In this document: positions 754 to 26,510 of the stretch, in pieces
Layout of the letters: the number at the start of each line of letters is the position of its first letter
How positions within the stretch are numbered: position 1 is the first letter of the stretch
Origin: a virus
DNA: 27,905 bases
Direction: 5' to 3' (one strand)
Virus record (IMG/VR): IMGVR_UViG_3300033064_001760
Coordinates: 1 to 27,905 of that record
The notes under the pieces: generated by a model
What the model was told of the DNA's origin: nothing
Databases searched by the model: none
Seen by the model: the letters and a program-made list of their open reading frames with translations, nothing else
Position numbers and translations under genes: made by a program

Positions 754-1185
754 TTGTTGCCAGTGAACACTGGTAGAATATTCCAAGTCCTTCAAATAGA
801 TCCCCAGATAGCCCGGATCCCAGCTGAGTTAGATGCCTCTGGAGTCCCGGGTAAAATTACAGATCTGCACAAAGAAGCGAAAAGATGCTTCCGCAAATTG
901 GCTATGCGAATCCACCCAGACAAGGATGGATCTGGTAGCGAATTCAGGATCCTGAAGGAAGCCTATGAAGCATCCAAGCTGATAGGATTAGAGTATCGTG
1001 AACCGGGGAATTATGTTGGGATTGTTTTTGGCACAAGAGATCTGGAAGTAGTAGATGGACGTAGCAGCTGGGCATGGATTAAAAATGCCCGGGGCTGGCG
1101 CATAGGGTACACCAGACACCCGGGCTGGGGACATGACACACGGAGTTCCACGGACGTTAGCCATCGTCCCCCTTTTATTACTTAA
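754..1185 (+). CDS. J-domain (DnaJ-like) protein
   Basis: The protein has 143 residues and an intact HPD motif at residues 54-56, preceded by a basic amphipathic helix (LHKEAKRCFRKLAMRI) and followed by KDGSGSEFRILKEAYEAS. That is helix II, HPD loop and helix III of a J domain. Helix I (GRIFQVLQID) is separated from helix II by an unusually long insert of about 18 residues. J domains stimulate the ATPase of Hsp70/DnaK, so a host DnaK is the expected partner. The C-terminal 60 residues (tryptophan- and glycine-rich) match nothing I recognise. The start is uncertain: TTG at 754 or 757, or GTG at 763, with only a weak AGG upstream. It is the only plus-strand gene, and its last 8 bp overlap the convergent glycosyltransferase gene. 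Confidence 0.8.
   Translation: MLPVNTGRIFQVLQIDPQIARIPAELDASGVPGKITDLHKEAKRCFRKLAMRIHPDKDGSGSEFRILKEAYEASKLIGLEYREPGNYVGIVFGTRDLEVVDGRSSWAWIKNARGWRIGYTRHPGWGHDTRSSTDVSHRPPFIT
1152..1179 (+). terminator. Possible weak intrinsic terminator of the J-domain gene
   Basis: GGACG at 1152-1156 and CGTCC at 1165-1169 are perfectly complementary around an 8-base loop. They are followed on the plus strand by CCC and a T-rich tract (TTTTATTA) ending at about 1180. The stem is only five base pairs and sits inside the last codons of the J-domain gene, just before its stop and the convergent gene's stop. The position fits a terminator, but the stability is marginal. Confidence 0.3.
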
Positions 1186-4100
1186 ACAAAGCTACATTCC
1201 CTTTTGCAAGTTCCCATGTAGGATCTGCAGCCAAAGCACGTTTAAAGAAATTCAATGCCAGATCCCTATTAGAATCCATATAGATACATCCCAAATTATT
1301 CAGGGAATATTTATTGTTAGGATCCAGATCTATAGAAACCCGGTATGATTCCATCGCTTCAAACTGTTTCCCCAGAGCACCCAGAGCAGCACCCAATATT
1401 TGGTGATACTGTGCATCCATTGGATCCTGTTCGATAGCCTTCACAATAGCATCATGGCATTCCTGCCACTTTTCATTTTCCTTACACTCTACAGCAAGCT
1501 CATAGAAATTATGCCCAGTGGGATTTTCATCTGCCTTCAGTTTCCCGAGCTCCAGATACAATCCTCTCCTGTGCTTTTCCTTTTCCGGGGAAGATCCAGT
1601 ATCACCCAGATTGAGAACAGAGATCTTTTCCTGATATGATTCATCTATGATCAGCCCAGCATCCTGCATAGAGTAGATAACAAGCTCATGCACGGGTAGC
1701 GTATGCTTAACCTGTGGCATGTTCATGTAGAGCCTCACAGTAGGGGTAGGGCAGTGATAGGGATGCCCGTTCGATAGAGGTAGATCCTCTGGATCCAATG
1801 GACGGGAATCTGTGGTAGCAAAATCACCAAGATTATCAGATAGATTTTTCTGAGTGATTACAAAGCCATGAGCTATTCCATCTTTTATAGCTTCCAGAAT
1901 ATGCTCTTGGGATCCCGGGGTGAGAACTTCATCAGCATCTATTTCCAAGATCCATTCATGCTTTGCATATCCAGTCATTTCATTTTTGGCATAATCAAAC
2001 CTGAAGGGATAATCCCCCCGGGTGTAAACTGCAGCACCATGCTCCTGAGCGATAGCTACTGTTTGATCTGTGGAATGATCATCCAGAACTATAATCTCAT
2101 CAGCGATGCCTGAAATACTGGAAATGGCATGACCTATATTGTCCTCTTCATCCCGGGCAAGTATGCAGACTGAGATCCCGGGGAGTAGATCTTCTTTTAC
2201 CCGGTTGGTATGGACATAATACAGGAAGTGATTTACCCGGTAGGCTGTATCATCTACACCCCCCAGAGCCATAATCTCTTCCTCAGTAAAGCCGGGATTT
2301 ATGTGCTGTGGATCATCGTCATTCACGATACCGAATCCACCGAACCTGTGGGGAGTTGACATAATCAAAACACCATTTGGATTCAGCAGGGATTTTAGAT
2401 CTTCAATAAACTTCCCGGGACGTAATACATGCTCCACAACTTCATTAGCCATAATAACATCATAGGTTCGTTCTACTACTTCTGTGATCCGGCTGGCATC
2501 GCCGTGGATCCACGTTCCCCAGTCAAAGGCATTTTCAGCGACTTCCAGAGCAGCTTCTGATAGATCTACTCCAGTTAGATCCTCATAACCCTGATCATGG
2601 ATCCCGTTCAGCATTCCACCAGACCAGCATCCAACATCCAGAACACTCACAGATCTATCTGCAGGGAAGTGCTTTAGGATCTCTGGGAATCTTACCCCCA
2701 TTGTAGATCCATCTGTATAATCATCCACCTTATCTACAGAATAGTATTTCTCTACATTCTGATAAAAGGATCTGAATAGCTCTTCATCAGCTGGAGTAAT
2801 ATCGCCCGCACGGATCCGGAACTTGGCAGATCTCATATTCCGCTCAATGATCACTTTTTCATCTATTGCATCCAGCAGATTTGTAACAACATCATTCCAC
2901 TGAAAATTCTCTTGGATCCAAAGCCTTCCTGCCCAGCTGAATGAATTGAATTGATCCAATCCGTTCTGGATCTGATTGATCCTCTGGATCATTGCTGTGG
3001 CTATATCCTCATCCGTTTGATCAAAGCTCCGGACTACAAAGCCTGTTTTTCCGCTCTGGATCTTCTCTGGGAGAGCTCCCAGTGCTGTAGTGATGGGGAC
3101 ACATCCTGCACCCTGAGCTTCCAGTGCAATCATGCAGCACGTTTCTGCAAAGGTAGATGGGTAGATCATGAACATTGATTCGCTCAATACCTTCATGAGC
3201 TCCGGACGTGGAATAGTTCCGTGATAAACGACACCCGGGGTATTCCTTGCCTGCTCATAGAGATCTTTGAACTGGGAATCATCGCCTTTATAAACACCCA
3301 GATCTGAATATACATGGATCTCTATTCCGGTTTCTTTGTAGATCCGGGGAGCCATAACCAGCAGCTTATCCAGTCCCCTGAAGGGAGTAGATGCATACAC
3401 TGCTTTCTTTTCCTTTGCACCGGGTAATACTTTGGGGATTGTATCCAGATCTACCCCATCTGTGGATACTATGATTTTCTCCACAGGCACACCCATTTTC
3501 AGGATCTGCATTTTATGATATTCTGAAACCACGATGAACGTATCAAAATATTCATTGCTCTCTGGGGATCCCAGTGGATCCATGTGAGCCTGATCGATAT
3601 CATCAGATAGTTTTAGGTGTTTGAATTTGCAATTTGTGTAAACAGTCATTGAGGGGATTCTGCTGCAGATGAAGTGCTTTGATTTGTAGCGATTGAGCTC
3701 TTCAGCACTCTTAACCTGTATGAATCTCACACCAGCATATCCACCACTGTTCACATTGCCACACATTGCTACCCTGAAGCCACGTTCAGCGAGTATCCGG
3801 GCATGGTATATCAATGCTGTTTCAGATCCGCCTAATGGCTCTGTTTCGATGCTGTCTGGTGAGATCAATGTGCTGTTCACCCAGAAGAGGTAATCCCATT
3901 CCTGATCATCCCCTGCAAAGATCTCAGAGGGGTTTGGATTCAATCGTTCCAAAATATCAGCTGATTGCTGCAGATCCACTTCAGTAAGCTCTGGTTTTAG
4001 ATCCATCTGCTCAATGTTCATAGCATCCGAAACAATCTGATTTACATACTTCTGAGCCACCTCACCCTGATCATGCTGCCTTGCTCTGGATTGCTTCCCT

Positions 4101-5083
4101 GAATATGCACGTTTTTTAAGCCTGAGCTTTTTCACAGCAGCTGCAGCCCATTCATCCTGCACAGCTGGATCCAGTGGATCCCCGGGGATACAGATCCCCA
4201 CTTTATTCAATATCTCTGGAGTTGCACCTGTGGGGGATGTAATAACATCCAATCCCAGAGCCAATGCTTCTACATGAGTCATTCCAAAGGTTTCATTAAA
4301 CTCCATCATAGGACATAACATCAGCCTGAAATCAGCCATATACTCCCAGAGCTCATGATGGGGACGTGATCTAAGGATCTGAACATCTGCAGCCTTTAGA
4401 TCCTTGTAGATCTGTTCAGCCTCTTCACGGATGTAATCCAGTGAATTGTATAAGCCCAGAGGATCCTCTGAATTATAGTTCCCCAGATCGTATGCCATCA
4501 TGTGAAGTTCAGCATCTGGTTCCAGCTTTTTAATCTTTTTGAATATTGGAGCCAGATATTTAGCAGATCTCTCCGGACGTGAAATATTTATGATCTTTTT
4601 CCCAGAGGGTTTCCCCGTGAAATGATTTTCAATAACCTCTACTGAATTACAGGGATCTCCGATCGTAACCAGATCATCCTGCAGCAGATCATGGAAGCGA
4701 CCAAGTATATCATTCCTATGCCATTCTGAGAGCACGATATACTTCAGGTTTGGAATGTCCCGGGTAGCTGGTATCAGCTGATCGTATGAGGGGGAAATAT
4801 TGTGGAGCCAGATGTAATTGGGCTGATCCTTCAGGAAGATCTCTGCAGGGAAACATTCTACAGCGATCAAAGCATCCCATCCGAATAGCGGATCATGCCG
4901 ATCCAGAGAATGCCATCCCAGTGATTCACGATCCACTTCACCAAAGAAGTGACAATCATGCCCGAGATCATTGAGCGATTTCCACAAATTAACAGATGAG
5001 ATCTCAGTTCCACCTATTGCATGTTCTTTTACCCGTTCTGGGCTGTATGGAATTGGAGCCATGTGATAGATTGCTATTTTCAT
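1178..5083 (-). CDS. Multi-enzyme fusion: two GT4 glycosyltransferases, SAM methyltransferase, GT2 glycosyltransferase and TPRs
   Basis: This 1301-residue protein has five recognisable modules. Residues 1-350 are a GT-B fold family 4 glycosyltransferase (GGTE at 24-27; E264-x7-E272 donor-binding motif). Residues 395-740 are a second GT4 (LGGSET at 417-422; E647-x7-E655). Residues 760-960 are a class I SAM methyltransferase (motif I DVGCWSGG at 816-823; GVDLSEAAL near 838). Residues 970-1180 are a GT-A family 2 glycosyltransferase (DDHSTD at 1001-1006; DADE at 1049-1052). Residues 1193-1298 are about three TPR-like repeats. All visible catalytic motifs are intact and no signal peptide is seen, so it should be cytoplasmic. 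Its start lies one base beyond the stop of the preceding coiled-coil gene (5085-5390), and it is downstream of the fibre genes. I infer sequential glycan building, with capping by methylation, on a virion or host-surface acceptor. The acceptor is unknown. Confidence 0.9.
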   Translation of the reverse strand: MKIAIYHMAPIPYSPERVKEHAIGGTEISSVNLWKSLNDLGHDCHFFGEVDRESLGWHSLDRHDPLFGWDALIAVECFPAEIFLKDQPNYIWLHNISPSYDQLIPATRDIPNLKYIVLSEWHRNDILGRFHDLLQDDLVTIGDPCNSVEVIENHFTGKPSGKKIINISRPERSAKYLAPIFKKIKKLEPDAELHMMAYDLGNYNSEDPLGLYNSLDYIREEAEQIYKDLKAADVQILRSRPHHELWEYMADFRLMLCPMMEFNETFGMTHVEALALGLDVITSPTGATPEILNKVGICIPGDPLDPAVQDEWAAAAVKKLRLKKRAYSGKQSRARQHDQGEVAQKYVNQIVSDAMNIEQMDLKPELTEVDLQQSADILERLNPNPSEIFAGDDQEWDYLFWVNSTLISPDSIETEPLGGSETALIYHARILAERGFRVAMCGNVNSGGYAGVRFIQVKSAEELNRYKSKHFICSRIPSMTVYTNCKFKHLKLSDDIDQAHMDPLGSPESNEYFDTFIVVSEYHKMQILKMGVPVEKIIVSTDGVDLDTIPKVLPGAKEKKAVYASTPFRGLDKLLVMAPRIYKETGIEIHVYSDLGVYKGDDSQFKDLYEQARNTPGVVYHGTIPRPELMKVLSESMFMIYPSTFAETCCMIALEAQGAGCVPITTALGALPEKIQSGKTGFVVRSFDQTDEDIATAMIQRINQIQNGLDQFNSFSWAGRLWIQENFQWNDVVTNLLDAIDEKVIIERNMRSAKFRIRAGDITPADEELFRSFYQNVEKYYSVDKVDDYTDGSTMGVRFPEILKHFPADRSVSVLDVGCWSGGMLNGIHDQGYEDLTGVDLSEAALEVAENAFDWGTWIHGDASRITEVVERTYDVIMANEVVEHVLRPGKFIEDLKSLLNPNGVLIMSTPHRFGGFGIVNDDDPQHINPGFTEEEIMALGGVDDTAYRVNHFLYYVHTNRVKEDLLPGISVCILARDEEDNIGHAISSISGIADEIIVLDDHSTDQTVAIAQEHGAAVYTRGDYPFRFDYAKNEMTGYAKHEWILEIDADEVLTPGSQEHILEAIKDGIAHGFVITQKNLSDNLGDFATTDSRPLDPEDLPLSNGHPYHCPTPTVRLYMNMPQVKHTLPVHELVIYSMQDAGLIIDESYQEKISVLNLGDTGSSPEKEKHRRGLYLELGKLKADENPTGHNFYELAVECKENEKWQECHDAIVKAIEQDPMDAQYHQILGAALGALGKQFEAMESYRVSIDLDPNNKYSLNNLGCIYMDSNRDLALNFFKRALAADPTWELAKGNVALFK

Positions 5084-5670: not shown

Positions 5671-8303
5671 TACATTTCCACCTCTATACATGCGATCACA
5701 TCATCAGATGAATGAGGATCTATTGCTCCACCACCAGTATAGCAGAGTAGGTCTAATCCAAGTTCATCCCCAGCAACAAAAGTCACTCCAGACATTGCGT
5801 TATCATATCCACTCTTGAATCCCGTGGAAGTCATACCAGTAAGTGACACATATTCACTGGTATCTTGAGTTCCATTTTTAGTTAAAACTACCCTTGTATA
5901 ATTAGGTGGGCTTGTATTTACAGATGAAGCAGAACACCTCATTGCAAAAGTCATTGCTGTAATCTTACCAGAGCGGGGCATTGTATATCCCCGCCCATTA
6001 AGGGCATTGCCCAGCCCTAATTCATAAGTGTTTGTAGAGTAGGTGGAACTGGGTGAAGCCCTGCCAGATGTAGTTGAAAATGGCAGAATTACTCTGGTTT
6101 TCAGAATGCCTACCTGATATCCAGAATCATCAATGATATCGGATCCGTCTATCTGGAAGGATCCACCAGCATCGATATCTCCAGTTGCATCCACCTTGCC
6201 TGTTACATCGATACCATCTGAGGCTGTAGCCAGTTTAGAGCTCCCAGCATACCAGAGTGTAGCTGCACCATCAGCATCCCCAGTTATGGTATATCTGATT
6301 ACTCCCCCAGCGGATTCTGCCCTCAGTGCAATCCCACCGCCATGATCCAAGTTCTCTACCCAGAGAATACTTCCATCATGCCAGATATGTCCCTCAGTGG
6401 TAGTATTGTTTCCGATATAGAGATCTCCACCATACACCTGAAAATCAGTCTCAGAAATCAGCAAAGCCCCTGAATTATAGAGCCTGTAATTAGTATCCAA
6501 TGTTCCGATATGGATACCCTCACCAAAAAGGAAACGTGTATTTGTAGATGATTGTACATTCAGGAATGCTTCAGTTCCCCCAGTATTCTCATCGTGGATT
6601 ATATATATATCTGAGCCAGCTGCACCCAATGCGCTTGTGCTCCAGCCTAAAACATTTTCAACATCTGGGAAAAAGATCCCATCCCACGTTCCAATAACAT
6701 TCTCACCAATCCGGACTATTTCAGAATCATCAGCCAAATAGAAGTGGAGCCTTCCGTTCACATAATCAATTTCAATGCGCTGAACTCCAGATCCGACACC
6801 ATAGCTTCCGGTAGCTGCATCCAAAGCGACTGTTTTAGATTCCAATGTAGCTGCCCGGACACTGACTGAATCTGCTATTGCCCCGGCTGTTTTCGCCCGG
6901 GCATAAGCAGTCTTTGCAGAGTTCTGAGCACTGACAGCATTAGTTTGAGCAGTGTTTGCCCGTGCCTGTCCTGATTTAGCACTGTTTACAGCACTGGTAG
7001 CTATGATTCTGGCTGTATTAGCCTGAGCATTTGCAGAAGTTGCTTGAGATCCAGCTGAACCAGCCCGGATATTTGCGGAGCTTGCCCTAACATCAGCAGA
7101 TCCCGCCTTGTTATCTGCCAGCAGAGCATCCTGCTTGGCTGTGAAAGCGATTGCTTCAGCTGAGGCAGCAGCTACCTGTGCGGATCCAGCTTTAGTATCT
7201 GCTGAGAATGATCGTGCATCTGCACTCAATGATCTTACATCAGCGGATCCTGCTTTGATAAATGCATCTGCTGCATCCTGAATAGCAGTATCTGCCCGGG
7301 CTTTCGCTGTCTGGGATCTAACATCTGCAGAAAGCGATCGAACGTCTGCAGATCCCGCTTTAATACTTGCACTCTGGGATCTCACATCTGCAGATCCAGC
7401 CTTGACTATGGCACTATCAGCTTTGTTATCAGCCAGCAATGCATCTTGCTTGGCAGTGGATGCCAGAGCTCCAGCAGATCCTGCACGAACTAAAGCGGAT
7501 CCAGCTTTTGCATCAGCTGAGGTAGTTCTGGCTGTAGCATCCCCTACGTTTTCAAGTGATTTAGTTGCATCCCCGGGGAGCTTCCCATCTTTTAGATTTG
7601 TGATCCCGGTATGAACCGTTCCATCTGCCTGAACAACATTGCCCCCACCGTCCTGAATTAATGTCCCGGTAGGTAGGTTCCCTGCAGTGAGTGCTGGATT
7701 TGCATTTGGCTGGTAATCGCTCCAGTTTGCATGAGCATATACAGTGCCTTCAACGGTAGCAGATTTTGCAGAAAAATATGGATAGACTTTTATCGTTATG
7801 TAATCATCTGCAGGAATGTTTATTGAGAACTTCCGTACTGTAGAATCCACCTTTGCAGATGGGCTGGTAGTATCCACTGTCTGGGTAGATCCGGATCCAT
7901 GTTCATACCGGATGATAAAACCCTGAGCAAATTCAGCCCCCTGCGTATAAGTCCATTCAATAGTAACCTGAGCATTCAGCTTATTATCTACATGACCTAT
8001 TGGGGTAGATCCTGCTCCAAAGGATCCATTAGGGGGAGTATCATTTACGAACTGATCTACACCTTCGATCAAAGTGGTATCTACTACTTCGATGCCATAG
8101 ATATAATCTTCAGGGGTAGTCCCACCGCCCTTAAATATCACATCGTACTTACCAGAGCCCGGGCGTATGAATTCCCAGTAACCTTTTAAGTTCCCTACTC
8201 TTTTGGATTCAGTAGTATCTATTCGCGTATTATCTGATTGGCGAATCAGATCTACCCGGACACCAGTTACACCGATATTCCCGCTTAATGATTCCCGTGG
8301 CAT
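5670..8303 (-). CDS. Long tail fibre with alanine-rich heptad stalk
   Basis: This 877-residue protein has clear regions. Residues 1-100 are a beta-rich N-terminal domain that probably attaches to the tail. Residues 107-197 are a fibronectin type III-like sandwich. Residues 255-480 are about 32 seven-residue repeats of the type K-A-G-S-A-D-V with Ala at the a/d core positions. Residues 500-735 are a beta-rich shaft with fibre-like repeats (TGDIDAGGSFQIDGSDI). Residues 740-877 are a C-terminal beta-sandwich likely to be the receptor-binding tip (TMPRSGKITAMTF; GDELGLDLLCYTGGG). No enzymatic motif is visible. It is the largest of a run of fibre genes and the best candidate for the host-range determinant. 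The TAATG overlap couples it to the following zinc-ribbon gene. Confidence 0.85.
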   Translation of the reverse strand: MPRESLSGNIGVTGVRVDLIRQSDNTRIDTTESKRVGNLKGYWEFIRPGSGKYDVIFKGGGTTPEDYIYGIEVVDTTLIEGVDQFVNDTPPNGSFGAGSTPIGHVDNKLNAQVTIEWTYTQGAEFAQGFIIRYEHGSGSTQTVDTTSPSAKVDSTVRKFSINIPADDYITIKVYPYFSAKSATVEGTVYAHANWSDYQPNANPALTAGNLPTGTLIQDGGGNVVQADGTVHTGITNLKDGKLPGDATKSLENVGDATARTTSADAKAGSALVRAGSAGALASTAKQDALLADNKADSAIVKAGSADVRSQSASIKAGSADVRSLSADVRSQTAKARADTAIQDAADAFIKAGSADVRSLSADARSFSADTKAGSAQVAAASAEAIAFTAKQDALLADNKAGSADVRASSANIRAGSAGSQATSANAQANTARIIATSAVNSAKSGQARANTAQTNAVSAQNSAKTAYARAKTAGAIADSVSVRAATLESKTVALDAATGSYGVGSGVQRIEIDYVNGRLHFYLADDSEIVRIGENVIGTWDGIFFPDVENVLGWSTSALGAAGSDIYIIHDENTGGTEAFLNVQSSTNTRFLFGEGIHIGTLDTNYRLYNSGALLISETDFQVYGGDLYIGNNTTTEGHIWHDGSILWVENLDHGGGIALRAESAGGVIRYTITGDADGAATLWYAGSSKLATASDGIDVTGKVDATGDIDAGGSFQIDGSDIIDDSGYQVGILKTRVILPFSTTSGRASPSSTYSTNTYELGLGNALNGRGYTMPRSGKITAMTFAMRCSASSVNTSPPNYTRVVLTKNGTQDTSEYVSLTGMTSTGFKSGYDNAMSGVTFVAGDELGLDLLCYTGGGAIDPHSSDDVIACIEVEM
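6864..7541 (-). repeat. 21-bp (heptad) coding repeat array in the tail-fibre stalk
   Basis: About 32 degenerate 21-bp units encode residues 255-480 of the fibre. Each encodes a heptad close to KAGSADV or RSLSADV. Superimposed is a longer repeat: residues 261-297 and 366-402 are close copies (both contain TAKQDALLADNK) exactly 105 residues, or 15 heptads, apart. This suggests a 315-bp duplication within the array. Confidence 0.85.
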
Positions 8304-21879: not shown

Positions 21880-23604
21880 TTAAAGCACGGCTATAGATTC
21901 AATTAAAAAGAAATTGAACGGGTTATTGATTCTGAATGAGACTTTTACGCTCCATCCATCTTCCAGACGTGATGCCACGATATTTTCCCACGATGGCAAA
22001 ATGTTATCTGGATCCGAATCATTCTCAGCTATAACACCTTCAGCTTCTTTGGTTTTACAGTACCCTTCCACAAAGCCCACGATGGTAGCGTATCCTACGC
22101 CGACTGTTCCACCAATGAAGATACGATCAGCTGCTACAGCTAATCCTTTGTTAAAGTCTCCTGCAGATCTCATCAGGGAGATCTCTGGGGATGCATTGGA
22201 TGCCGTATCCCAGAGGCTGGCATTGTTCTGCATTGTGTTAATGCCCTGATTAATAACAGTGCCAATCCCACCCATATCCCGGGGGCAAATAACTCCACCA
22301 CGGATAAAATCTTCACGATCAGTTTTGCCAAAATCATACTGCAGACCTTGACAGCTAAACACCTTCCGGGTAAGTGGCTGCTGGACTGGAAGCCCAGCTG
22401 CTAACCCAGCGACTTTTGCTGCAAAGAATTTAGGGGCAATGGTTTCTACCCCGGATCCATCTTCTGCGAATTCTTTAATCCCACAAGCTACCAGAGAACC
22501 GTAAGGGGTATTCATCAGCTTTGCCTGTGCCAATGTAGTGCTTTTTGCGAGTGCAGCTGTAGCCTGTGAAGCCATCCCAAAATAACCTTCACGGAAATAT
22601 GAGTGAGCAGCACAATGGGCAGTAACCAGAGCATGATCTGCTGCAGTCTCTGAGTCTATCCAGAGGATCTGAGCATTTGCCTCTTCAGCTAACACTAATG
22701 CAGCTGTGATCTCTGCAGTATCCATCGCTGGAGCAGCCCCAGAGGATAAGAATTCAAACCCTGTGGTATTGGAAAGTTTGGTTCCGGGGGTTACTACTGT
22801 GAGATCTACAAACGCGCTAAAGTTATCCAGAGCGTGTTTTGAGATGTAGGGATACCCCTGCAGCACTAAAGCAGCAGATTTCACATCGCCTTCAGCCAGT
22901 GTATTCAAAATGGTACTGTTCAGAGTACCTACACCAGAAGGGGCATTTGCATATATTGTGCAATCCCAATCATCCAGAGCATTGATAGCAGCTGCTACCT
23001 TGCTCACAGTATTGTAACTGGCAAGAGCAAAATCGAAATCAAATTCCACTACCTCAGAGGCAGCGACACCAGCAGATCCTATGATATGATCCCCAGCAGT
23101 GATCTCCAGTAGTCCTGAACCCAAAGCACCTACATATTGGATTGAGAGTGCCAGATCCAGATAATCGAAAGTCTCTGTTTCTCCTGCAAATTTTACAGTG
23201 ATTTTGGATCCCGCTGCGAGTGTAGCAGCTTCGATCTTCACCGAGATCCCATTCACATAGGTTCCATAATCCTTAGAATCCACAGTTCCACTGGTTCCAT
23301 CAAAGGATCCTTTCACGGCTGCTTGTGCCCGGATGAATCCCACGTATGGGGCTCCAGCATGAAACTGGGATGGATTGAAGAGATACCCCATTGCACGTAA
23401 ACTGTCACCAGCACGGAGCACATCAGCTGCCTGCCCTTTGTCCGTGAACCAGTTTATTTGATCTGGTGTACCACCTTCACTTGCACCGATAACAATTACC
23501 CGCCCGGTAGCAAGTGGATTTGCCCGGGGGGTAACTCCCACCGTGAATTTCGATTTAGCCTGTGGCTCGACTAAAATTTGGTTGTCAAACTTCTGTTGGC
23601 TCAT
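21880..23604 (-). CDS. Contractile tail sheath protein
   Basis: The protein has 574 residues. The N-terminus (TVGVTPRANPLATGRVIVIG, then ASEGGTPDQINWFTDKGQAADVLRAGDSL) is the typical opening of sheath proteins, in which an early strand is donated to a neighbouring subunit. Residues about 110-270 form a variable, beta-rich protruding insertion. The middle (LVLAEEANAQILWIDSETAAD, HALVTAHCAAHSYFREGYFG) and the C-terminal region (PRDMGGIGTVINQGINTMQN; EDGWSVKVSFRINNPFNFFLIESIAV) match the sheath core, with a terminal strand that swaps into the next ring. AAGGAG precedes the ATG. This gene defines the particle as contractile. Confidence 0.92.
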   Translation of the reverse strand: MSQQKFDNQILVEPQAKSKFTVGVTPRANPLATGRVIVIGASEGGTPDQINWFTDKGQAADVLRAGDSLRAMGYLFNPSQFHAGAPYVGFIRAQAAVKGSFDGTSGTVDSKDYGTYVNGISVKIEAATLAAGSKITVKFAGETETFDYLDLALSIQYVGALGSGLLEITAGDHIIGSAGVAASEVVEFDFDFALASYNTVSKVAAAINALDDWDCTIYANAPSGVGTLNSTILNTLAEGDVKSAALVLQGYPYISKHALDNFSAFVDLTVVTPGTKLSNTTGFEFLSSGAAPAMDTAEITAALVLAEEANAQILWIDSETAADHALVTAHCAAHSYFREGYFGMASQATAALAKSTTLAQAKLMNTPYGSLVACGIKEFAEDGSGVETIAPKFFAAKVAGLAAGLPVQQPLTRKVFSCQGLQYDFGKTDREDFIRGGVICPRDMGGIGTVINQGINTMQNNASLWDTASNASPEISLMRSAGDFNKGLAVAADRIFIGGTVGVGYATIVGFVEGYCKTKEAEGVIAENDSDPDNILPSWENIVASRLEDGWSVKVSFRINNPFNFFLIESIAVL

Positions 23605-23838: not shown

Positions 23839-24726
23839 CTATTCCGTGCCTAATCCCTCACCATCCAGCCATGATGCCAGAGTAGAGTTCATTGTAATTT
23901 CAGATTCAATAACACATGATATCAGCATCATGCCACCTATTTGAACCCTGTCCCGTACTGCTTCATTGATCACATCGCCTTCAATCATTATCTCTACATT
24001 TGTCATTCCACCGCCATTTGGATGCATGAGATATTGGCGGAAAAATTCTTTGTTCTCTCTGAAGATATTTGTGATCGTGTCCCGGCGAATAGCATTTGGA
24101 TCTTCCCAGACTACCTGAATGTTATCCATTTCGATTTCGCCATAAGCATTTTTCATATCAGCTTTGATCTCCCTGAAGTACCCAATGAACTGATTTAATA
24201 CGTGTCCACCTACACGGGTAACATAGAGGATCGGAGCTCTCATTTCTGGCATTCCATATTCACGGGCAAGCTGATAGTGTTTCTCCCGCTCCATGCCATA
24301 AGATTTCATTACCCGTTCCACGTTTTCAAGTATTAATGCCTTCGCATCGATGATCTGGGTTCCCACTGTTTTAGTGGGTGTTACACTCACCCCGGCTGTA
24401 GTAGCTGCAGATACTGCATCGTCTGAGGTATCCTGAAGCACAGATCTGTAGTAATAAGTGGTTAAATTATCCACCGCATAATCAGAGATCCCTGTGATAT
24501 CTGGATAGTCAGTTCCGGAGATTAAGGAAATGATCAGATCATCGTTTATCGATCCAGCAAAATAGTTGTTTATTTCAGTCTGGGTGATATCGGATCCTTC
24601 CTTCCGGAATACAATTAAATTCCATCCATCAGGGAGAGTAGTGGGAAGAGTCCATGACAATTCCACTTCATTCCCCAATGGATGGGCAATCGCTAAAAGG
24701 TTAGTGAGTGCTGAGGGAGCGGGCAT
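23839..24726 (-). CDS. Tail/neck protein with N-terminal fibronectin type III domain
   Basis: The protein has 295 residues. Residues 1-118 form a fibronectin type III-like sandwich (PSALTNLLAIAHPLGNEVEL SW strand pair, an insert, and YAVDNLTTYYYRS near 85-95, the usual xY.Y.v strand). Residues 125-295 are a mixed helix/beta domain with IIDAKALILENVERVMKSYG, followed by an FREIKADMKNAYGEIEMDNIQVV region and a C-terminal beta section. The second domain may be a tail terminator or completion protein because it lies immediately upstream of the sheath operon, but I cannot confirm the family. The ribosome-binding site is weak, with GGATAA near the ATG. It is separated from the small membrane protein by only 3 bp. 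Confidence 0.6.
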   Translation of the reverse strand: MPAPSALTNLLAIAHPLGNEVELSWTLPTTLPDGWNLIVFRKEGSDITQTEINNYFAGSINDDLIISLISGTDYPDITGISDYAVDNLTTYYYRSVLQDTSDDAVSAATTAGVSVTPTKTVGTQIIDAKALILENVERVMKSYGMEREKHYQLAREYGMPEMRAPILYVTRVGGHVLNQFIGYFREIKADMKNAYGEIEMDNIQVVWEDPNAIRRDTITNIFRENKEFFRQYLMHPNGGGMTNVEIMIEGDVINEAVRDRVQIGGMMLISCVIESEITMNSTLASWLDGEGLGTE

Positions 24727-24729
24727 AGC

Positions 24730-25077
24730 TTATCCAGCAGCCTTGCGGAGTGCTTTTAGCCACTCATTATCTACATTCGTTTTAGTACCATCTACCAGCT
24801 TCTGAGCAATGGCAAAGAAAATCAGCTTCCCAATCTTCTCAGTGAATGCCACTTTTACACCCAGTATCAGCAGAGCCCGAACACCCGGGAGATAGAATCC
24901 ACCTACCAGAACGATGAGAGTCCCGAGAATAGCCTTCCAGCTTTCCTGTAGATACTGCATGATCTTAGCAAAGAATCCCAGCTCTGCAGCTGGTGCTGCA
25001 GCATCAGGCATTGCCAGTGCTGTCCCTACCAGCAGAACTGCAAAAACTGCAATCAGCATAATTTTGATAATCTTCAT
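24730..25077 (-). CDS. Small membrane protein with signal peptide, possible holin
   Basis: The protein has 115 residues. It begins with a signal-like sequence (lysines at positions 2 and 5, then a hydrophobic core to about residue 20, and an ALA-M junction near residue 22). A second hydrophobic segment spans about residues 48-78 (ILGTLIVLVGGFYLPGVRAL). A third amphipathic one follows near 84-94, and the tail is basic and soluble. AAGGGA precedes the ATG. It follows the XhlA-like gene by 14 bp, so a holin or lysis-membrane role is attractive. A virion membrane protein is an alternative. No enzyme motif is visible. Confidence 0.55.
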   Translation of the reverse strand: MKIIKIMLIAVFAVLLVGTALAMPDAAAPAAELGFFAKIMQYLQESWKAILGTLIVLVGGFYLPGVRALLILGVKVAFTEKIGKLIFFAIAQKLVDGTKTNVDNEWLKALRKAAG

Positions 25078-25091
25078 AATGTCCCTTTCTT

Positions 25092-25406
25092 TTATTTGGC
25101 TACTGCCACTTTAAATAGCATCCCTATCATTCCAGATGCAAATATATTCACAAGCAATATAATGATACCAATCGTAATCCTTGACATTTCAGATTCTTTA
25201 TTTTCACGGTACTTTGTATTCGCTTTAAAATCGCTAATGTCAAAATCGTGAAGCTGCAGCATAAGGTGCTGTAGATCGCCCTTAATCCCTGTATCAGTCC
25301 GATCCCCGTCCACACCAGAAAGCATCCCAAAGATGCTTGAAAGTTTTTCGCCCTGCTTCTGCTGTATAGATAGGATCTCATTTTGAATATCACGCTCTCC
25401 GGGCAT
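25092..25406 (-). CDS. XhlA-like coiled-coil protein with C-terminal transmembrane helix
   Basis: The protein has 104 residues. The N-terminal 70 residues are charged and helical (MPGERDIQNEILSIQQKQGE, then a DLQHLMLQLHDFDISDFKANT region). A single hydrophobic helix spans 77-99 (ITIGIIILLVNIFASGMIGM), and the C-terminus is short and basic. This coiled coil plus C-terminal anchor resembles the haemolysin XhlA/holin-associated family, which acts with holins at the cytoplasmic membrane. A run of six G near the ATG serves as ribosome-binding site. Its start overlaps the response regulator's stop by 17 bp, so the two are translationally linked. Confidence 0.6.
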   Translation of the reverse strand: MPGERDIQNEILSIQQKQGEKLSSIFGMLSGVDGDRTDTGIKGDLQHLMLQLHDFDISDFKANTKYRENKESEMSRITIGIIILLVNIFASGMIGMLFKVAVAK

Positions 25407-25890
25407 TTAGACCCCCCAGTAATTCATCTGCAGCTATGATCTCAGTTTCAAGTAATTCCAGACCTCTAAGCGTTTGCCTTGTCTGGTTAAGGCTTTCCAT
25501 TAGCTCCAAAAAACGCCCTACACGGCGATTGAATACTTGGGGTTTAAGTGGCTTATGATAGCTTACGAAACTTCCGTAATCGCCAAATTCATCTTTTAAT
25601 CTTTGCTTCAGATCATCGGCAGCAGAGATAAATATAAATGGGGTAATGTGATACCCGTTCATAGCCTTTAAGATCTTGGCAGTTTCTATTCCATTTGAAT
25701 GACCATCCAGATTGAGATCCATGATAAATAGATCGAACTCATGGGCAGCTGCCTGCTGGAAGGCTGAATCAAAGCCATCTGCTTCCCCCACATGGACTTC
25801 AGGGAAATTGCTTTGGATGAGTTCTCTCAGTAGAGCTCTCTGGGTACTATCATCGTCCATAATTAAGATGGAGCCTGTGGTTTTACTCAT
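25390..25890 (-). CDS. Single-domain (CheY-like) response regulator
   Basis: The protein has 166 residues from the ATG at 25890. A GTG (25914) and an ATG (25905) lie upstream in frame, but GAAGGA seven bases before 25890 makes that the best start. Residues 8-120 are a receiver domain. They contain the acidic triad DDD at 12-14, the phosphoacceptor D58 in IMDLNLDG, S89 in FIFISA, and K113 in HKP. All key residues for phosphotransfer are present. Residues 122-166 form a helical, coiled-coil-like tail without a DNA-binding or enzymatic output domain. It is therefore a stand-alone receiver that may act through protein contacts. It is stacked directly on the XhlA-like gene. Phage-encoded receivers are uncommon, and its target is unknown. 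Confidence 0.85.
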   Translation of the reverse strand: MSKTTGSILIMDDDSTQRALLRELIQSNFPEVHVGEADGFDSAFQQAAAHEFDLFIMDLNLDGHSNGIETAKILKAMNGYHITPFIFISAADDLKQRLKDEFGDYGSFVSYHKPLKPQVFNRRVGRFLELMESLNQTRQTLRGLELLETEIIAADELLGGLNARRA

Positions 25891-25915
25891 TGCCTTGTCC
25901 TTCATTTTTGGCACA

Positions 25916-25955
25916 TCCGATACCCCTTCAGCCTACAATGACTGAGGGGATCGGA
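25916..25955. promoter_or_regulatory. Long imperfect hairpin upstream of the response regulator
   Basis: TCCGAT (25916-25921) pairs with ATCGGA (25950-25955), CCCC (25923-25926) with GGGG (25946-25949), T with A, and CAG (25929-25931) with CTG (25942-25944). There is a ten-base loop and two single-base bulges. It lies in the 95-bp gap between two minus-strand genes, about 25 bases ahead of the response regulator's ATG. Neither strand has a T tract after it, so it is not a standard intrinsic terminator. It may be an RNA stem that limits readthrough or controls translation of the regulator, or a DNA-binding site. Confidence 0.55.
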
Positions 25956-25985
25956 CGGGGCACGGGTTAAAATATTCACTGTGCT

Positions 25986-26510
25986 CTATCCTATCCTTAA
26001 CGCCATGATTTGCATATCGATTGCAGTGATATCTGCAATCCCATCAGATTCGACATAAAGGGATAGTTCCTGCCCGGCATTTACGCTCACCAGATCCAGA
26101 ACCGTAATTGGCTCCGGATAGAGGGCATCTTTAAATTTTATTTTAGGTGCTGCATCTGTGGCTACTGCATCCAGATAGAACTGGAGCCCCACAAGTTTAT
26201 CAGCTATTGAGGATTTTAAGGATCCCTGAGCAAACAGAACATACACCCCGCCATTGTCCAGAGTGATCTTGCCATTTGCAAAGTCCGGGGTAGATCCTAC
26301 ACCCAGACCGTTTTTAGTAAAGTTTATGAGCTTTACAGGGGTAGCTGCAGCAAGCGTTTGAGCAGTAGTATTATCTACTCCATAGATCACCCCATAAACA
26401 CCGAAAAGGGACACGATGGCATCCCTCAGATCCTGTGGGCTGATATCTCCAGCTGAGTTATCCCCTAATAGGGATAGGATCTGTGCTCTGGTTCTTACTG
26501 TATCACTCAT
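25986..26510 (-). CDS. C1q/TNF-like virion protein
   Basis: This 174-residue protein starts with ILSLLGDNSAGDISPQDLRD (residues 11-30), a short motif common at the N-terminus of phage fibre and decoration proteins. A jelly-roll beta sandwich of the C1q/TNF type follows (residues 45-174: GKITLDNGGVYVLFAQGSLK, GLQFYLDAVA, and a final VESDGIADITAIDMQIMALR). Such proteins are usually trimeric surface fibres or receptor-binding heads. GAGGG precedes the ATG by eight bases. It lies upstream of the lysis-like cassette and just after the Cys-containing structural gene. A short capsid or neck fibre is the most likely role. Confidence 0.7.
   Translation of the reverse strand: MSDTVRTRAQILSLLGDNSAGDISPQDLRDAIVSLFGVYGVIYGVDNTTAQTLAAATPVKLINFTKNGLGVGSTPDFANGKITLDNGGVYVLFAQGSLKSSIADKLVGLQFYLDAVATDAAPKIKFKDALYPEPITVLDLVSVNAGQELSLYVESDGIADITAIDMQIMALRIG

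Follow-up and report, generated by a model that had tools for sequence, protein, structure and literature searches.

Known regulators of phage lysis are mostly small membrane proteins, and the inputs that act on them are few and poorly understood. In T4 RI/T and PBSX XhlA/XhlB, as in N4 gp62/gp63, small membrane proteins and a regulator are encoded in one block with an endolysin nearby; the locus described here resembles these in its layout, with endolysin-type genes nearby in some relatives only. To our knowledge, none of the T4 and PBSX regulators is a response-regulator receiver. In phage N4, the passages concerned with lysis place the soluble termini of the regulator and the regulatory region of the pinholin in the cytosol; the term 'Receiver domain', as used there for gp63, is the authors' name for a region of the pinholin only, and, unlike the locus described here, the lysis regulator is presented in those passages without a response-regulator receiver (PMC12642591).

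Stand-alone receivers such as CheY, DivK and Spo0F carry the same active-site residues as the receiver that is the subject of this report, and their fold agrees with it. Unlike them, the present receiver is encoded by a phage, in a lysis-type block, ends in an extended C-terminal helix, has no HATPase_c partner in the 10 records searched and is altered in its active site in a sister clade. Zeng and Chisholm reportedly described, in 2012, the use of a host two-component system by cyanophages. These phages and Alteromonas phage R8W, so far as the latter is described, share with the present one a tie to bacterial two-component signalling. The gene description of R8W lists PhoB (g48) near an endolysin (g43) and a holin (g46), and presents the PhoB-like gene as that of a DNA-binding regulator for phosphate limitation, unlike the receiver here (PMC8228385). 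RoeA, a PhoB-like regulator of the Yersinia entomophaga holin/endolysin lysis cassette, offers a parallel as a response-regulator-like protein that controls a holin/endolysin cluster; it is a transcriptional regulator encoded by the host (PMC10101115). The present receiver belongs to the phage, lacks a DNA-binding domain and would exert its effect on proteins. Jumbo-phage cRec, also a divergent receiver domain in phages, is linked to NAD+/ADP-ribose enzymes and proposed to process cyclic phosphates (PMC7824862). The receiver here instead neighbours membrane, endolysin-type and tail genes, and an NAD+/ADP-ribose enzyme is absent among the window and relative proteins scanned. Gut phages, in the relevant passage, encode Spo0A homologues that lack a receiver (PMC10294663). 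The initial annotation of the locus, made from its sequence, knew of no described system of this kind, and our literature search agrees: among the matches listed, with most subscription papers outside coverage, it returned no phage receiver or response regulator described together with lysis genes.

The receiver and its genomic setting

The window, by which we mean the whole stretch analysed, is a 27,905-base viral record of a contractile-tailed phage represented only by environmental DNA, in which PHROG profiles identify a tail sheath (21880..23604, minus strand; phrog_279, E=1e-38), a baseplate wedge protein (phrog_6) and a tail lysin (phrog_1015). Along the minus strand lie, in this order, the genes for a single-domain response-regulator receiver of 166 amino acids (25390..25890), a 104-aa protein with a single transmembrane (TM) segment, which is our candidate for a tail-anchored lysis regulator (25092..25406), a 115-aa membrane protein that is a holin candidate (24730..25077), a conserved 295-aa protein between the lysis-like block and the sheath (23839..24726), and the sheath itself. 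Upstream of the receiver, on the same strand, is the gene for a 174-aa protein (25986..26510), a 174-aa counterpart of which is also found in two related loci, L004 and L023. Morphogenesis genes surround the block, with a 363-aa phrog_1004-like protein encoded upstream and the sheath downstream. As had been read from the sequence at the outset, the stop of the receiver gene overlaps the single-TM gene by 17 bp (25390-25406), and a second membrane gene follows.

The receiver reading frame begins either at a GTG (25390-25914, minus strand) or at an ATG that is preceded by an AAGGA motif (25390-25890). The stretch upstream of the ATG (25891..25985, minus strand) is predicted to fold into a hairpin of high stability in the RNA (-35.6 kcal/mol, z -3.5), without a U-tract, and coincides with the upstream GTG start.

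The claim that this gene encodes a complete receiver domain with no output domain held up. The window protein matches Pfam Response_reg (PF00072) at 52.7 bits against a cut-off of 30.2, matches no other Pfam domain above its cut-off, and, numbered from the ATG, carries D12, D13 and D14, the acceptor D58, S89 and K113, which together supply the acid pair, phospho-acceptor, S/T and K of an active receiver. An AlphaFold2 model of a 164-aa construct, built on six rows (six family members), has a mean pLDDT of 82.6 and a pTM of 0.74, and adds to the receiver fold only an extended C-terminal helix of 41 residues (residues 115-155). Among the fold matches to this model is 3dge_C (RR468 bound to the kinase HK853; TM-score 0.85 by target length), and the model aligns with WspR (3i5a) over 157 columns and with RssB (3f7a) over 155; the solved relatives returned by a profile search include PleD, CheY, DivK and Spo0F. 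Searches of isolate phages with the receiver, the second membrane gene or the 295-aa gene gave no match. A more distant type of receiver, from the related locus L016, matches entries in 27 phage records, of which 16 are unannotated and 11 name the gene as a response regulator or a regulator of similar kind; we have taken these for host-like genes.

Conservation of the gene block

To examine how firmly the receiver is tied to its neighbours, we compared loci anchored on the 295-aa protein, which is independent of the receiver. This anchor retrieved 12 viral loci, giving 13 records with the window (G000-G012), several of them near-identical and with repeat retrievals of the same contigs counted once; two successive viral scans, each with an alignment of this protein, gave an identical set of 12 contigs, and with two search patterns per scan the counts below come from a small sample. 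Genome contigs, scanned both with a portion of the 295-aa sequence and with the alignment, yielded no relative.

A PF00072 domain above the cut-off occurs exactly once in 11 of the 13 records that carry the 295-aa gene. In all 11, the gene that immediately follows the receiver is a small single-TM gene in an overlapping frame, after which come a second small gene, mostly of membrane type, and then the 295-aa gene; a receiver that stands apart from the small membrane genes, the finding that would have counted against the original proposal, is seen in none of the 11. The reciprocal search with the single-TM family finds eight loci, every one of them within a receiver-bearing record. The receivers are of six distinct types (window = L002; L004 = L005 = L006; L016 = L017; L023; L024; L025 = L026), the five others being 24-60% identical to that of the window. 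One member of this set is matched less directly: the two small genes of L016 are missed both by the single-TM profile and by phrog_402, and the equivalence of its trio therefore rests on place and size. The linkage of the receiver to small membrane genes is more than chance, and the gene pairing suggests that the receiver may be inherited together with a lysis-type cassette.

The geometry of the overlap is conserved as well. The single-TM reading frame is offset by +1 from that of the receiver at each of the seven junctions measured (six distinct, as L026 repeats L025), a pattern that joint inheritance of the two overlapping genes would predict. We considered a programmed frameshift that would fuse the two products as an explanation for this constant offset, and rejected it because the single-TM gene has its own ATG in the window and in L023 and its own TTG in L025; Shine-Dalgarno-like motifs precede the gene's own starts in L023 and L025. 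At L024 (region L024:1000-1300), an in-frame TAG located three codons past the ATG breaks the beginning of the single-TM gene, reflecting a sequencing error, decay or the use of another start.

Comparison of the window with L004 gives identities of 60% for the receiver, 52% for the single-TM protein, 66% for the membrane protein and 89% for the 295-aa protein; judged by these values, the receiver diverges more quickly than the 295-aa protein and roughly in step with the single-TM and membrane proteins. Across 36 non-independent pairs, identical sequences included, receiver divergence tracks that of the single-TM and membrane genes (r=0.96 for each) slightly more closely than that of the 295-aa gene (r=0.90). 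By the substitution rates estimated between the window and L004 receivers (dN 0.27, and dS 1.44, which is near saturation), purifying selection acts on the receiver.

The 295-aa gene occurs without a receiver in two records. In L029, a putative endolysin gene, a coil-TM gene and a phrog_402 gene are consecutive, with no receiver between them, and in L027 the place immediately upstream of a 70-aa coil-TM gene is taken by another gene. The receivers of two further loci, L018 and L019, stand in unrelated contexts and were left out of the counts; L018, a 79-kb viral contig, encodes a 125-aa stand-alone receiver with a long protein upstream that appears PAS-like by eye (L018:2289-4070 and 5998-6375). 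A partial phage-integrase match (PF00589, 31.4 bits; G005:6018-6209) is present in the L016 record alone among the eight searched, and that relative may therefore be temperate.

Small membrane proteins and endolysin-type neighbours

The 104-aa protein has a soluble N-terminal part and one TM segment near its C-terminus by Kyte-Doolittle hydropathy, and a single C-terminal hydrophobic segment is found in all six single-TM proteins computed (the window and five relatives). Its profile matches nine of the 13 records, with the motifs SG, DTG-KG and N...R..KE.E.SR invariant across the relatives. This architecture is that of the XhlA family, whose members have a soluble N-terminal part and one C-terminal TM segment. 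The proposal that the protein is XhlA-like did not survive at the level of sequence: the window protein has no Pfam match at E<=0.1, and the small coil-TM proteins of L016, L025, L027 and L029 all fall short of the XhlA (PF10779) cut-off of 34.7 bits, the one signal among these four, in L027, reaching 12.7 bits. The label thus describes architecture only. A phospho-accepting histidine in the single-TM protein was considered and rejected, as the two histidines of the window protein are absent from L004.

The 115-aa protein combines an N-terminal hydrophobic segment with a second TM segment, and its C-terminal domain matches phrog_402 (E=1.8e-7). This family is found in 10 of the 13 records, although at E<=0.1 the same search is also positive in 3 of 14 control genomes. 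By tblastn, the protein has a weak match (E 0.2) that adjoins a D-Ala-D-Ala carboxypeptidase gene in a Vibrio phage, and another weak match, in a Prochlorococcus phage, has hypothetical neighbours only.

Inspection of the flanking genes in the relatives revealed endolysin-type genes in the block at L016, L017, L023, L025, L026 and L029. At L023, L025 and L026 (two distinct), the gene immediately before the receiver belongs to phrog_3108, and its end overlaps the receiver start by 4 bp; at L016 and L017, which share one sequence, the second small gene is immediately followed by a phage lysozyme gene (PF00959, over its cut-off). PHROGs labels both phrog_3108 and phrog_402 'unknown function'. A phrog_3108 homologue of Pantoea phage Nufs112 is annotated as an endolysin and sits near a PHROG holin (phrog_4712) and Rz-like/Rz1-like genes, whereas one in a Vibrio phage lies two small genes before the terminase genes, and among 40 phage records listed three homologues are annotated as endolysin and the rest as hypothetical. 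An AlphaFold2 model of the phrog_3108 protein was unusable (pLDDT 45.5) and a PDB sequence search with it returned one chance-level row (E 0.33), so its identity as an endolysin rests on depositors' annotation and gene neighbourhood. The family also matches inside frames of 650-691 aa (G012:17604-18071, G005:16216-16653 and G011:7944-8477), and thus seems also to be a domain of large proteins.

Among the relatives, trios of this kind thus have endolysin genes of two unrelated types at their flanks. The window's own clade differs: neither phrog_3108 nor PF00959 is found in the window or in the four records of its clade, all of them fragments, and in one window-clade record the portion of upstream ORFs scanned against Pfam and PHROG contained no endolysin. 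The lysis-type signals of the window are limited to the tail lysin phrog_1015 and a very weak endolysin match (phrog_380, E 0.086) in a baseplate protein. The initial description of the block as a lysis-like cassette is supported by the persistence of the trio in 11 of 13 records and by the endolysin-type genes adjoining it in some relatives, but gains no endolysin from the window clade. The relatives support a lysis role for the cassette, which we regard as likely, not proven. The gene block itself is real, conserved and unusual, and is likely to be a lysis cassette whose regulator is of a new type.

Phosphorylation and the role of the receiver

In the reading that we favour, tentatively, the phage owns a cytosolic receiver that forms part of a lysis-type cassette, is co-translated with a tail-anchored lysis regulator and tunes lysis. 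The receiver would be translated together with the single-TM protein by translational coupling, and would dock on the cytosolic N-terminal part of that protein or on that of the second membrane protein; once docked, it would hold back or trigger membrane permeabilisation and so set the timing of lysis.

Whether phosphorylation enters into this scheme depends on the clade. The full phosphotransfer set is present in three of the six distinct receivers, those of the window, L004 and L016 types, and is intact in the window and L004 despite their 60% identity. In L023, L024 and L025 (L026 being identical to L025), D13 is replaced by glycine, and L023 also carries glutamate in place of the phospho-acceptor D58; D12, the S/T position and the lysine are kept in all six types, D58 in five and D13 in three. 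The 10 records searched (nine of the 13 and the L018 record) encode no HATPase_c kinase; the source of any phosphate would therefore probably be the host or acetyl phosphate. The description of the receiver as phosphorylation-competent thus fits the window, with its full residue set, but is not the whole story, because the gene block persists in relatives whose receiver has a damaged active site. From these residue patterns, gating by phosphorylation appears plausible only for part of the receiver family. In the window clade, occupancy of D58 through a host kinase or acetyl phosphate might shift the docking interaction and feed the state of the host into lysis, whereas in the sister clade the same docking would proceed with little or no phosphorylation. 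In its most specific form, the proposal is that a host kinase or acetyl phosphate charges a CheY-like phage receiver, which in turn switches a tail-anchored lysis regulator, coupling lysis to host signalling or energy status, the sister clade having a fixed or phosphorylation-independent switch; this version is possible but, in our estimation, rather doubtful. The position of a receiver beside lysis-like genes nonetheless suggests that host signals could help to decide when the cell bursts. If this is correct, the receiver would give lysis timing a defined chemical input, aspartate phosphorylation, and a post-translational link would run from host two-component signalling to cell burst.

The complete active sites of the window, L004 and L016 types would also suit a protein aimed at the host, acting late in infection as a decoy, sink or agonist that rewires a two-component pathway (for example in envelope stress or the cell cycle) and sitting in a lysis operon only for the timing of its expression. 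With no HATPase_c kinase in the 10 records searched, such a protein would need a host partner; its sequence profile is nearest to receivers such as PleD, CheY and DivK, with the kinase-bound receiver 3dge_C among the best fold matches. A phosphate sink would, however, be spoiled by the D13-to-glycine and D58-to-glutamate changes of the sister clade. Moreover, co-expression does not call for pairing with a small single-TM gene that stays fixed across 24-31% receiver identity, nor for a single-TM neighbour that is constant (that of L016 by place and size only) where the endolysin neighbour varies. We consider a host target unlikely. These same substitutions, glycine at position 13 in three of six distinct receivers and a glutamate acceptor in L023, with gene linkage still kept, would be explained if the protein were a pseudo-receiver that works independently of phosphorylation as a docking or assembly part of a lysis complex, antiholin-like or chaperone-like, and if the active site of the window clade were an ancestral remnant; the extended last helix of the model could offer a binding or dimer surface for such a part. 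Against this account speaks the retention of D12, S/T and K throughout, and of D58 and D13 in the numbers given above, although the distant types share 24-31% identity with the window receiver; unused sites would be expected to decay more, and we judge the account improbable.

The remaining alternative concerns the membrane genes, which could encode virion-associated or superinfection-exclusion proteins, served by the receiver, in place of a lysis cassette. The location of the block among morphogenesis genes fits such a role, as do the lack of an endolysin in the fragmentary records of the window clade and the existence in these phages of tail proteins with lysin-like domains. That two unrelated endolysin types adjoin the trio in relatives, and that the weak Vibrio phage match of the 115-aa protein lies by a D-Ala-D-Ala carboxypeptidase gene, argue in the other direction, and we hold this explanation to be quite improbable. 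Under the tentatively preferred reading, in which the receiver tunes a lysis-type cassette, the active-site series carried on one gene block (complete; glycine at position 13; glycine at position 13 with a glutamate acceptor) forms a natural set for probing the part played by phosphorylation.

Elsewhere in the window, Pfam identifies a 1301-aa fusion (1178-5083, minus strand) of a glycosyltransferase, a methyltransferase, a second glycosyltransferase and TPR domains. On L002, a contig that extends the right end of the window, the genes for a reverse transcriptase (PF00078, 2e-16) and a putative variable protein lie side by side, upstream of the receiver block (L002 39-887 and 1080-2090). The C-terminus of the putative variable protein resembles, by its motif, that of a diversity-generating retroelement variable protein; the protein has no Pfam match. 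A similar reverse transcriptase-like ORF is discernible by eye at L004:307-1266.
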